Positions 53,369 through 57,449 of a stretch of 64,000 nucleotides of DNA are shown piece by piece. The position numbers and the translations under genes were made by a program. Under the pieces are notes generated by a model. The model was not told the origin of the DNA. It searched no databases and saw nothing but the letters and a program-made list of their open reading frames with translations. Each line of letters opens with the position of its first letter. The first letter of the stretch is position 1. Origin of the DNA: Haloprofundus salilacus. GTDB taxonomy: Archaea; Halobacteriota; Halobacteria; Halobacteriales; Haloferacaceae. Location: positions 3,100,001 through 3,164,000 of the forward strand of contig NZ_CP083723.1 of the NCBI RefSeq assembly GCF_020150815.1. Reading direction: 5' to 3'.

Positions 53369-53457
53369 CACCCGCCGTCGACGACTTTCTGCTGCGTCCG
53401 ATTCAGTTCAATCCCGTACAACGCCCGCCGCGTTTCGGTGTTCGCAAATGTACATTC

Positions 53458-53465
53458 TTTTAAAT
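53458..53465 (+). promoter_or_regulatory. TATA box of the acyl-CoA synthetase gene
   Basis: TTTTAAAT, centred 27-28 nt before ATG 53489; it selects this start over an upstream in-frame ATG at 53438. Confidence 0.6.
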
Positions 53466-53488
53466 GTGGGAAACCGTATCTGTGTGGT

Positions 53489-55453
53489 ATGGAATGGCGG
53501 GACGCGGAAGCGACATACGAGAGCGAGGTCGTCGGTCAAACGACGCTCCCCGTGATGTTCGAGGAGAGTGCCGAACGCAACGCCAACCGCATCGCACAGC
53601 GGTACAAGGGTGGTCTCTACGACCGGTCGCTCGCCCCCGACGTAGTGTCGGCGGCAGCGGCCGACGAGTACGGACAGGTCAGTTACGCGGAGATGCGCGA
53701 CATCGTCCGCAACCTCGCCGCCGGCTTTCGCGAACTCGGTCTCGAAACCGGCGACCGGGTCGGCATCCTCTCGCACACCCGGATGGAGTGGGCGCAGACC
53801 GACTTCGCCGTGCTCGCCGCCGGCGGCGTCGTCACCACCGTCTACACCTCGTCCTCCGAGCAACAAGTGACGTATCTGCTCGGCGACCCCGACGCCTCGG
53901 GCGTCGTCGTCGAGAACGCCGAGTTGCTCCGGAAAGTGCTCGCGGTCGAGGACGAACTCGATCTCGATTTCATCGTCGTCGTCGACGATCTGGCCGACGG
54001 CACTGGGATGGGCGGGGCGCTCCGCGATCGCGACGACATCCTCACGCTCGGCGATCTCCACGACCGGGGTGCGGCGGCGTTCGATGAGAGGACGTACGAA
54101 TCGTGGCTCGACGAGCGCGGTCCCGACGACCTAGCGAGTCTCATCTACACCTCCGGGACGACCGGGCGACCGAAGGGCGTCAGACTCACCCACCGGAACT
54201 TCCGCTCGAACGTCAACCAGTGTTACCGGCGCTTCGGTTCCCGCCACGACAAAGGTGACCTCCCGGTCATCGACACGCAGTCGACGACGCTCTCGTTCCT
54301 GCCGCTCGCGCACGTGTTCGAGCGCCTCGCCGGTCATTTCCTGATGTTCGCGGCGGGAGCGACCGTCGCCTACGCCGAGAGTCCTGACACGCTCCGCGAG
54401 GACTTCCAACTCGTTCGGCCGACCGTCGGTACGAGCGTCCCCCGGGTGTACGAGAAGCTGTACGGCGCGATTCGGACGCAGGCCTCCGAATCGCCCGTCA
54501 AAAAACGCATCTTCGAGTGGGCGTCCGGCGTCGGCCGCGAGTACCACACGGCGGAGAGTCCGGGGACGTTCCTGACGGCGAAACACCGTCTCGCCGACAG
54601 ACTCGTTTTCGAACAGGTCCGCGAGGCGCTCGGCGGGCGAATCGACTTCTTCATCAGCGGCGGCGGCAGCCTCTCGCCGGAGCTCTGCGCGCTGTACCAC
54701 GGGATGGGACTCCCCATCTTGGAGGGGTACGGACTGACTGAAACGTCGCCCGTCGTCGCCGTCAATCCGCCGGAGAACCCCCAAACCGGCACTATCGGCC
54801 CGCCCGTCCACGACGTTGAGGTCCGCGTCGACGACAGCGTCGTCGGCCAGAAGACCCGGGAGTCGGCGGCGGGCGAGGTGGGCGAACTGCTCGTGAAGGG
54901 ACCGAACGTCACCCAGGGGTACTGGAACCGCCCCGAGGAGACCGAGCAGGCGTTCACGACTGACGGATGGTTCCGCACCGGCGACATCGTCGAGATTCGC
55001 CCCGACGACTACATCGCCTTCCGCGAGCGCGCGAAACAGATTCTCGTCCTCTCGACGGGCAAGAACGTCGCTCCCGGTCCAATTGAGGACGCGTTCGCGT
55101 CCAGCGCGCTCGTCGAGCAGTGCATGGTGCTCGGCGACGGCCGCAAGTTCGTCAGCGCGCTCGTCGTCCCCAACTTCGAGGGCGTCCGTGAGTGGGCCGA
55201 ACACGAGGGCATCGACCTGCCCGACGACCCGAAGGCTATCTGCCGGAACGACCGCGTCTACGAGCGTATCGAAGCCGAAATTGAAGCCGCCAACGCGAAC
55301 TTCGAGTCGTACGAGCGAATCAAACAGTTCCGCCTCGTGCCCGAGGAGTTCACCGAGGACAACGACCTGATGACGCCGACGATGAAGAAGAAACGCCGCA
55401 ACATCCTTGACAGCTACGCCGACCAGGTCGACCTGCTCTACGAAGGGCGCTGA
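53489..55453 (+). CDS. Long-chain acyl-CoA synthetase (AMP-forming)
   Basis: A 654-residue adenylating enzyme: the AMP motif YTSGTTGRPKGVRLTHRN (~residues 219-236), the GYGLTETSP motif (~residues 414-422), the hinge WFRTGDIVEI (~residues 494-503) and FRERAKQILVLSTGKNVAPG with the catalytic Lys near 525. It resembles FadD/ACSBG-type fatty-acyl-CoA ligases, with a characteristic long N-terminal domain and insertion. Fatty acids are likely substrates; haloarchaea can degrade fatty acids. A thiolase is encoded 6 kb away. Monocistronic. Confidence 0.92.
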   Translation: MEWRDAEATYESEVVGQTTLPVMFEESAERNANRIAQRYKGGLYDRSLAPDVVSAAAADEYGQVSYAEMRDIVRNLAAGFRELGLETGDRVGILSHTRMEWAQTDFAVLAAGGVVTTVYTSSSEQQVTYLLGDPDASGVVVENAELLRKVLAVEDELDLDFIVVVDDLADGTGMGGALRDRDDILTLGDLHDRGAAAFDERTYESWLDERGPDDLASLIYTSGTTGRPKGVRLTHRNFRSNVNQCYRRFGSRHDKGDLPVIDTQSTTLSFLPLAHVFERLAGHFLMFAAGATVAYAESPDTLREDFQLVRPTVGTSVPRVYEKLYGAIRTQASESPVKKRIFEWASGVGREYHTAESPGTFLTAKHRLADRLVFEQVREALGGRIDFFISGGGSLSPELCALYHGMGLPILEGYGLTETSPVVAVNPPENPQTGTIGPPVHDVEVRVDDSVVGQKTRESAAGEVGELLVKGPNVTQGYWNRPEETEQAFTTDGWFRTGDIVEIRPDDYIAFRERAKQILVLSTGKNVAPGPIEDAFASSALVEQCMVLGDGRKFVSALVVPNFEGVREWAEHEGIDLPDDPKAICRNDRVYERIEAEIEAANANFESYERIKQFRLVPEEFTEDNDLMTPTMKKKRRNILDSYADQVDLLYEGR

Positions 55454-55533: not shown

Positions 55534-55543
55534 ACTTATAACC
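55534..55543 (+). promoter_or_regulatory. TATA box of the antiporter transcript
   Basis: ACTTATAACC, centred 29 nt before the small ORF start at 55567 and about 43 nt before the antiporter ATG. So the transcript should begin at or next to the mini-ORF. Confidence 0.6.
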
Positions 55544-55566
55544 GAAGCTCACCTCGGAGTACACCT

Positions 55567-55581
55567 ATGGAGGAGCGCTAA
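55567..55581 (+). CDS. Four-codon mini-ORF overlapping the antiporter start
   Basis: ATG GAG GAG CGC TAA, whose stop shares its last A with the antiporter ATG (TAATG). The GGAGGAG inside it doubles as a Shine-Dalgarno sequence for the next start. With the TATA box placed 29 nt before it, the mini-ORF lies at the leaderless position, a possible translational switch. Only four residues, so it could be chance. Confidence 0.35.
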   Translation: MEER

Positions 55582-57449
55582 TGGCGAACGCGGGCGGGAA
55601 CCTCATCCCTCTCGTCGCCGCCATCATCGGCATCGGCGTCGTCGCGCAGGTGCTCTCCGACAGATACCGGGTCCCGAGCGTCGTCTTCCTCATCGCCGCA
55701 GGCATCGTGATGGGACCGGAGGTGCTCGGCCTCCTGCAACCGGATGCCTTCGGCAACGCGCTCTCGGCCATCGTCGGCCTCTCGGTCGCCATCATCGTCT
55801 TCGAGGGTGCGTTCCACCTCCGCGTCGACAAACTTCGACAGGCCCCGGCAGCGACGGTTCGCCTCGTCACGGTCGGCGCGCTCATCGCGCTCGTCGGGAC
55901 GTCGCTCACTGTCCACTACGTCCTCGGGTCGACGTGGTCCGTCGCCTTTCTCATCGGCGCGCTGCTGATCGCGACCGGACCGACGGTCATCACGCCGATT
56001 CTCGAAGTCGTCCCGACGCGGGACCGTGTCCGGGCCGTACTGGAGACGGAGGGCATCGTCAACGACGTGACGGCCGCGATACTCGCCATTGTCGTCTTCG
56101 AGACCATCCACTCCGGGGTCTCCGCCCCGAGCGCACTGCTCCAGATTTTTGCCCAGCGCCTCGGCGTCGGGGTCCTCGTGGGGACGGCCGTCGCCGGCGT
56201 GCTCTACTACGTCCTCCGGTACGTCGACCTCTCGCCGTCGAGCGCCCCGCGGAACGCCCGCCTGCTCGTCCTCGCGGGCGCACTCGTTGCTTACGGAACC
56301 GCCGACACCATCGCCACCGAGGCCGGCGTCGCCGCCGCGGCGACGGCGGGCGTCCTTCTCGGCAACGCCGACATCCCTTACGAGGAGGACGTGACCGACT
56401 TCAAGGGCGACATCACACTGCTCGTCCTCTCGTTCGTCTTCATCACCCTCGCCGCGCTGTTGGAGTTCGACGAACTCCGGCAACTCGGCGTAGGAGGGCT
56501 GGTCGTCGTCGCCGTCGTCGCGCTCGTCCTGCGGCCGTTTCTGGTGTTCGTCTCGACCGCTGGCGACCGGTTCACCCGAAACGAGAAACTGTTCATGAGC
56601 TTCGTCGGCCCGCGCGGCATCATCCCCGCGTCGGTCGCGACGCTGTTCGCCATCGAACTCCGGGCGATGGGGATGACGCAAGCGGCGCACACTCTCGTCG
56701 GCACCGTCTTCCTCGTCATCCTCACGACCGTCGTCTTCGAGGGCGGCTTCGCCCGCCGAATCGCGGAATATCTCGATGTGATACCTATGCGCATACTCGT
56801 CATCGGAGGCGGTAAGGTGGGTCGGATGCTCGCCGAACGCCTCGAAACCCGCGGAGAGAACGTCGTACTGATAGAGAACGACCCCGATATCGTCGAACTC
56901 GCCCGCAACCAGGGGTTCACCGTCCACGCAGGCGACGCCACCGATTCGGGGGTGCTCGCCGCCGCCGGGGCGGCGAACGCCAAAGTGGTCGTCGCGGCCA
57001 CCGGCGACGACGACGTGAACCTGCTCGTCACCCAGCTCGCGGAGTCGAAGTTCGACCCCGAGACCATCATCGCCCGCGCGAACAACCCCGACAACGCCCG
57101 TGCGTTCAGAGATCTCGGGGTGGAGACCATCTCCTCGACAGTCGCGACAGCACAGGCCATCGACAACCACATCGAGCGGCCGACGCTGTCGAACTGGATG
57201 GACGAACTCGGCGAGAGCGGCGACGTCCAGGAGATTGCGGTGACTGCCGCCGACCTCGTCGGGAAGAAGATTCGCGATATCGGCGAGGACCTCCCCGACG
57301 GCTGTCTCATCGCGCTCGTCTCCCGCGACGGCGGGTCGGAGGTGCCGTCGGCGGACTACACGCTGAGCGAAGGCGACAAAATCACCATTCTCGGTCGGCG
57401 CGAGGCGGTTCGCGAGGCGATGGCGTACGTCCACCCGGAGGAAGGGTAG
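55581..57449 (+). CDS. NhaP-type Na+/H+ antiporter fused to TrkA domains
   Basis: A 622-residue protein. Residues ~8-395 hold about 12 membrane helices of the CPA1/NhaP type, with the helix 5-6 LETEGIVNDVTAAI motif carrying the conserved Asn-Asp. Residues ~400-525 are a TrkA-N domain (ILVIGGGKVGRMLAERLETR, then NDPDIVELARNQGFTVHAGDA) that may bind NAD(H), and ~540-620 a TrkA-C domain. It exports Na+ or K+ in exchange for protons under nucleotide control, fitting a high-salt life. Preceded by a mini-ORF. Confidence 0.93.
   Translation: MANAGGNLIPLVAAIIGIGVVAQVLSDRYRVPSVVFLIAAGIVMGPEVLGLLQPDAFGNALSAIVGLSVAIIVFEGAFHLRVDKLRQAPAATVRLVTVGALIALVGTSLTVHYVLGSTWSVAFLIGALLIATGPTVITPILEVVPTRDRVRAVLETEGIVNDVTAAILAIVVFETIHSGVSAPSALLQIFAQRLGVGVLVGTAVAGVLYYVLRYVDLSPSSAPRNARLLVLAGALVAYGTADTIATEAGVAAAATAGVLLGNADIPYEEDVTDFKGDITLLVLSFVFITLAALLEFDELRQLGVGGLVVVAVVALVLRPFLVFVSTAGDRFTRNEKLFMSFVGPRGIIPASVATLFAIELRAMGMTQAAHTLVGTVFLVILTTVVFEGGFARRIAEYLDVIPMRILVIGGGKVGRMLAERLETRGENVVLIENDPDIVELARNQGFTVHAGDATDSGVLAAAGAANAKVVVAATGDDDVNLLVTQLAESKFDPETIIARANNPDNARAFRDLGVETISSTVATAQAIDNHIERPTLSNWMDELGESGDVQEIAVTAADLVGKKIRDIGEDLPDGCLIALVSRDGGSEVPSADYTLSEGDKITILGRREAVREAMAYVHPEEG

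Follow-up and report, generated by a model that had tools for sequence, protein, structure and literature searches.

A short, putatively leaderless open reading frame overlapping the start of a haloarchaeal Na+/H+ exchanger gene: a candidate ribosome entry site kept in many genera

Haloarchaeal mRNAs are mostly leaderless, and leaderless initiation is the main route of translation initiation in these organisms. Several systems, cited here from excerpts of the respective reports, bear on a gene whose start codon is overlapped by a very short open reading frame (ORF). The nearest prior description in these excerpts is that of coupled leaderless small ORFs in mycobacteria (PMC4633059). In Haloferax, 9 of 9 overlapping gene pairs were strictly coupled, and 6 of 7 pairs reinitiated less, to a varying degree, once the Shine-Dalgarno (SD) motif had been removed (PMC6728339); in E. 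coli, the final 15 nt of the upstream gene are reported to suffice (PMC10666635). In addition, the SD motif of the Haloferax sod 5′-UTR, the single SD-bearing 5′-UTR tested in that genus, was removable without loss (PMC3986360), and about 60 cases of 5′-UTRs 6-20 nt in length were termed unexpected (PMC4983044). A 2025 review treats delivery of the ribosome by a short upstream ORF as a proposed alternative form of initiation (PMC12548453). Our own literature search, by titles and abstract openings, found no description of leaderless minicistrons that end at haloarchaeal gene starts.

The locus studied here lies in a window of 64,000 nucleotides from a haloarchaeal chromosome, by which we mean the whole stretch of DNA analyzed. 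It encodes a Na+/H+ exchanger of the NhaP/TrkA type (55581..57449, + strand, 622 aa), with Pfam matches to Na_H_Exchanger (2e-42), TrkA_N (1.8e-32) and TrkA_C (1.7e-12). Immediately upstream is a putative leaderless mini-ORF, ATG GAG GAG CGC TAA (MEER; 55567..55581, + strand), which spans 15 nt including its stop. Its ATG occupies 55567-55569 and its TAA 55579-55581 (+ strand), and the final A of this stop is the first base of the antiporter ATG (55581-55583), so that the two form a TAATG overlap (55579..55583, + strand) with a spacing of -1 nt. The SD core GGAGG (55569..55573, + strand) is contained in the mini-ORF, 7 nt 5′ of the antiporter ATG, and pairs with the tail of the 16S rRNA, whose 3′ end in this genome is GGATCACCTCCT. 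Both the ending of the mini-ORF on the antiporter ATG and the SD inside it had been proposed in an earlier reading of the window (hereafter the original prediction), and both were found at these positions. The upstream neighbor, a 671-codon ORF (53438-55453, + strand) that we take to resemble an AMP-forming acyl-CoA synthetase, ends 113 nt 5′ of the mini-ORF.

A TATA box, TTATAA, is present at 55536..55541 (+ strand). The original prediction had credited the leader with a good TATA box at 29 nt; the box is confirmed, and the distance depends on the base counted, being 31 nt from its first T to the mini-ORF ATG. In an 800-kb portion of this genome, a simple codon score yielded 652 genes; among them, a TTWT peak lies 28-30 nt 5′ of the start codon, and the TATA box of leaderless Haloferax starts is reported at -29 to -25 in the text excerpted (PMC3986360). 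The spacing of TTATAA is compatible with transcription starting at 55567 or 1-3 nt earlier, unlike at 55581. Compared with the TTWT peak, the promoter thus appears to aim at the mini-ORF (about 0-3 nt before its ATG) and not at the antiporter start, and a transcription start at or just before the mini-ORF ATG is predicted from the TATA box.

Within this one genome, the exact 17-mer occurs once. A looser pattern, ATGGAGGN{3,7}TRATG, occurs 4 times compared to 2 for a reversed-pattern control, and its in-frame form once. The bare pattern count fails to separate the site from chance, and orthologues were therefore examined. Among the 57 genes called in the window, the arrangement is unique to the antiporter, the other 56 being without it. 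A DNA similarity search in plasmids gave no match.

A search with the antiporter protein yielded matches at 1e-100 in 162 of 170 genomes of the family, and matches in 360 of 392 genomes of the order, with 80 loci kept in the named collection. The reading frame was assessed in a set of 160 loci (134 distinct leaders), in which 3 leaders lacked a start codon and 18 an SD-like core; the core was thus present in 113 of the 131 leaders having a start codon. The trinucleotide ending on this core was ATG in 91 of these 113 leaders, ACG in 5, GTG in 4 and others in 13. For the 91 ATG rows, a stop codon that precedes or overlaps the gene start was in frame with the ATG in 61; frame +1 had one in 15 rows and frame +2 in none; 30 rows had no in-frame stop close to the gene start. 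The same counts for the 18 core-containing rows with neither ATG nor GTG were 1, 1 and 6.

A wider scan was based on 180 leaders, read chiefly from the closest matches and reduced to 153 distinct ones. To qualify, a leader needed an ATG or GTG lying 26-34 nt downstream of a TATA-like motif and 8-60 nt before the gene start, with a stop in the same frame whose end fell -4 to +1 nt from that start. Both the spacing window and the TATA window were chosen after inspection of some rows, and the length range was widened after the Halobacterium cases had been seen by eye. By this rule, 90 of 153 leaders qualified, against 10 in each of the two shifted registers (77, with 6 and 5, when only ATG was allowed). 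After exclusion of 17 leaders (Halorubrum and second or distant copies, 4 of which fitted the definition), 86 of 136 qualified, with 9 and 10 in the shifted registers; the rows counted are related, so that all these counts represent non-independent trials. At least one qualifying leader was found for 26 of 49 genus labels in the 136-leader set, and in the window's family for 15 of 19 genus labels, where 68 of 86 leaders qualified. An overlapping or very close stop and start, as sought in termination-reinitiation coupling, was observed both at the window locus (-1 nt) and in the 86 of 136 leaders (-4 to +1). Lack of conservation of the ATG...TAATG pattern had been named beforehand as a refuting outcome in the original prediction; the pattern was kept, and the frame was held where length or overlap type differs. 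As judged from the sequences, this conservation raises the mini-ORF above chance, and by the frame and register counts the leader appears to be translated.

Qualifying leaders vary in length, phase and sequence, and the genus names given for some of the variants are in part our presumption. Four-codon mini-ORFs account for 65 of the 86 qualifying leaders, with spacings to the gene of -1 in 39, 0 in 24 and +1 in 2, and in these the distance from ATG to stop is constant while the gene start shifts. All three spacings are present in Haloplanus, where the overlaps are TGATG, TGAATG, TGAGTG and TGAAGTG. In Haloferax, a TAA or TAG precedes GTG, and Halobellus and Halogeometricum have mainly TAGTG. 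Longer forms precede the antiporter in Halobacterium (4 of 4, 8-9 codons, closing with ATGA or GTGA), Halolamina (5 of 5, GTG start, 12 codons, with TAG adjoining the gene ATG; one of these leaders can also be read as a 5-codon ATG ORF), Natrinema (5 of 5) and Haloterrigena (1 of 1), the last two genera having 19 codons and ATGA (leaders L127, L130, L132, L134, L135 and L139). The peptides differ among lineages and are conserved neither in sequence nor in length. The linkage is kept while the peptide varies, which is a feature of the mycobacterial type, and replacement of the mini-ORF by others of different length is expected if the linkage, and not the peptide, is under selection.

Conservation of single bases was examined in 103 rows of the family, of which 95 were alignable (no more than 3 mismatches to ATGGAGG, a criterion that itself favors conservation). 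In these 95 rows, the A of the mini-ORF ATG was kept in 82, the T in 87 and the G in 90, and no base exceeded 51 rows in any of the 12 columns before the ATG. The T preceding GGAGG is not the base that would pair with the 16S tail, which would call for A. In one Halogranum lineage the core is broken (GGTGG), with ATG and TAATG intact.

Several lineages depart from the arrangement. Leaders without a stop at the gene start that keep ATGGAGG at the equivalent place were found in Halobaculum (9 of 10), Haloarcula (3 of 4), Halorientalis and several single genera; in these and others, the frame of the mini-ORF closes about 11-28 nt inside the gene. In the Halobaculum leaders L103, L120, L165 and L180-L185, which have no such stop, the retained ATGGAGG lies near the predicted transcription start. 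None of the 6 Halorussus leaders qualified, the SD being retained and the ATG missing in most, and the arrangement was seen in 0 of 8 Halorubrum copies. Since Halorussus and Halorubrum lack it, the arrangement is not essential to the antiporter gene across the whole order. In these lineages, either longer overlaps are tolerated by the coupling, or a 5′ AUG is useful without termination, or a different mode has been adopted.

The arrangement is not limited to the antiporter. Of the 652 genes called in the same genome, 13 were preceded by a TATA-placed mini-ORF that began with ATG and closed at the gene start, compared to 19 in the +1 register and 2 in the +2 register. We disregarded the +1 control, since it also takes in upstream ATGs that share the frame of the gene and so are true alternative starts. 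Other trinucleotides in place of ATG gave 0-13 genes, TGA (13) being equal to ATG (13). An 800-kb stretch of a congener contained orthologues of 520 genes; of these, 13 qualified (control 1), and for 9 both genomes showed the arrangement at identical spacing (control 0); other trinucleotides were conserved in 0-6 genes (GAC 6, ATA 4). We surmise that these non-negligible trinucleotide controls are in part one- or two-base shadows of ATGA. Among the 9 conserved genes, gene 246, presumably phytoene synthase, probably reflects a wrong choice of start and was set aside, leaving 8 of 520. The conserved cases include an acyl-CoA carboxylase subunit (pccB type, Carboxyl_trans domain), a CetZ tubulin, an SNF-family symporter and an FAD/amine oxidoreductase.

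Two of these genes were followed in 30 genomes each, with the gene start fixed at the aligned first codon. The pccB mini-ORF of the same genome (C1:698937-698960; leader L278, relatives L279-L307) is TATA-placed, has 7 codons and ends in ATGA. In 28 of 30 genomes, an ORF starting with ATG closes in ATGA or GTGA (26 of 30 under the strict TATA rule); both other registers gave 0. These mini-ORFs have 6-11 codons and are variable in length and peptide, and the leaders often contain a GGTGGTCC-like stretch capable of pairing with the 16S tail. The cetZ mini-ORF (C1:304668-304691, - strand; leader L248, relatives L249-L277) also has 7 codons and ends in ATGA; such ORFs were detected in 18 of 30 genomes, with register controls of 0 and 2. 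The +1 control for cetZ was initially 13, and fell to 0 after the start was fixed at codon 1. Several other cetZ genes have a short SD-like leader from which the ATG is absent.

Other short leaders with an SD numbered 9 among the 652 genes, too few for statistics. In gene 237 of the same genome, ATGGTGATAGTTAGCAATG follows a TATA box, and an ATG is joined to an SD-like GGTGAT; an in-frame stop at the gene was not found in this leader. The sod genes provide a contrast. Inspected by eye in 12 genomes, they have short SD-bearing leaders, in which no TATA-placed ATG ORF ending at the gene was found within the spacing rule; leader L368 has an in-frame ATG. One sod leader of the Halogeometricum type (L357) contains a 7-codon ATG ORF whose TGA lies over the sod start, with its ATG 23 nt from a TATA-like motif and hence outside the spacing rule used. 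Because the sod leaders do without such an ATG, neither the promoter nor the SD requires an ATG at that place.

Anatomy, in-frame conservation, a frame that persists through changes of length and overlap, and the presence of the arrangement at other genes were all observed directly, and they support the interpretation, already offered in the original prediction, that translation of the antiporter may be coupled to initiation on the mini-ORF. From sequence comparison we infer translation of the mini-ORF and its coupling to the gene by initiation there and then reinitiation, and the mini-ORF is probably a translated leaderless minicistron that serves as a ribosome entry site. Transcription would begin at or shortly before the mini-ORF ATG, and ribosomes would initiate there by the leaderless route, translate four codons and terminate at TAA. 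The GGAGG carried by the mini-ORF would hold the terminating ribosomes, which would then reinitiate at the overlapping antiporter ATG. This scheme agrees with the Haloferax reporter results cited above. The peptide would be irrelevant, and the start, the frame, the stop and the stop-start spacing would matter.

The leader could also be an ordinary 5′-UTR of about 14 nt with an SD, the ATG at its 5′ end being incidental or kept for transcription initiation. The Halorussus leaders, with the SD at the same place and no ATG, are consistent with this reading, as are the 30 of 91 ATG rows with no nearby in-frame stop, and an SD was reported to enhance translation from leaders of Halobacterium (Sartorius-Neef and Pfeifer 2004, cited in excerpts of PMC7531240). 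However, it predicts neither an in-frame stop at codon 5 that stays constant under one-base shifts of the gene start, nor the longer coupled ORFs seen in Halobacterium, Halolamina and Natrinema. The sod leaders demonstrate that a short SD leader can go without an ATG, and the sod SD is itself dispensable in Haloferax according to the excerpted report (PMC3986360). We regard an ordinary SD leader as unlikely.

A different possibility is that a 5′-terminal AUG recruits the ribosome and the SD moves it directly to the real start, with no translation and termination on the mini-ORF. Halobaculum, Haloarcula and Halorientalis, which keep ATGGAGG where the nearby stop is absent, would fit such a shift, and so would gene 237, where an ATG with SD-like GGTGAT lacks an in-frame stop. 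However, the frame is kept in most antiporter leaders and in nearly all pccB leaders, over 6-11 codons from start to stop in the latter. We regard a direct shift as quite improbable.

The position upstream of a Na+/H+ exchanger might suggest an upstream ORF with a regulatory role, in which the peptide or the codons respond to salt, initiator or amino-acid supply and thereby adjust transporter expression. Short upstream ORFs are known regulators of genes in other systems. Stalling in the ribosome tunnel needs more than four codons, however, and the mini-ORF would be insufficient for it; the peptides are conserved neither in sequence nor in length, and unrelated genes use the same form. A regulatory role of this kind is therefore very improbable. 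The original prediction had pointed to a salt-homeostasis transporter, and no special tie to salt homeostasis was evident: the same arrangement precedes pccB, cetZ and a few other genes, so that nothing in it is specific to this function. Chance, for which one could cite only a bare pattern that barely exceeds its control in a single genome (4 compared to 2), is disfavored by the conservation and register controls to the point of being negligible.

If the mini-ORF is indeed a leaderless minicistron, it need not stand alone. On balance we favor the existence of a class of haloarchaeal genes in which a leaderless minicistron, 4-19 codons long, opens the mRNA and serves only to load the ribosome and hand it over, which would represent a separate initiation route. 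The size of this class would be of the order of 1-2% of genes (8 of 520), or perhaps some 50 per genome. Such a class would explain why SD motifs near 5′ ends persist though unused for de novo initiation, some short "5′-UTRs" of 6-20 nt would in fact be translated, and gene-start annotation would be overlooking functional four-codon ORFs. In addition, a leaderless minicistron bearing a reinitiation SD would reconcile leaderless mRNAs, the dispensable sod SD and the unexpected 5′-UTRs of 6-20 nt.

As far as the excerpted reports describe these systems, the Haloferax sod leader (PMC3986360) resembles the leader studied here in being short and having an SD near the start codon, whereas the sod leaders that we examined are without a TATA-placed ATG plus a stop at the gene start. 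The upstream ORFs of Haloferax volcanii (PMC4983044) are likewise small ORFs upstream of haloarchaeal genes, but they have 15-31 residues in leaders of 150-250 nt, and overlap with the gene start is not described in the excerpt. Termination-reinitiation at Haloferax volcanii gene pairs (PMC6728339; PMC10666635) shares with our locus the stop-start overlap, the SD in the upstream ORF and haloarchaeal ribosomes; those pairs, as excerpted, consist of full genes, whereas the upstream cistron here has 4-19 codons and seemingly only brings ribosomes. In a Corynebacterium leaderless bicistronic design (PMC10367133), a leaderless fore-cistron with an SD drives the downstream gene, and mutation of its start codon or SD lowered output; unlike our locus, the excerpted design is synthetic and bacterial.

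The mycobacterial coupled leaderless small ORFs (PMC4633059), as presented in the excerpt, have a stop that overlaps the annotated gene start, as here; their placement and linkage are conserved and their peptide is not, and delivery of ribosomes by reinitiation was proposed. They are bacterial and defined by an RTGA tetramer (-4), whereas the window locus has TAATG (-1); an ATGA or GTGA overlap is present in the antiporter leaders of Halobacterium and Natrinema and in pccB. Compared to the mycobacterial type, the arrangement described here is archaeal and TATA-driven, has spacings of -1, 0 and +1 besides -4, goes down to four codons, carries its SD inside the ORF and is kept in many genera. 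If our reading is correct, the mycobacterial arrangement extends to archaea.
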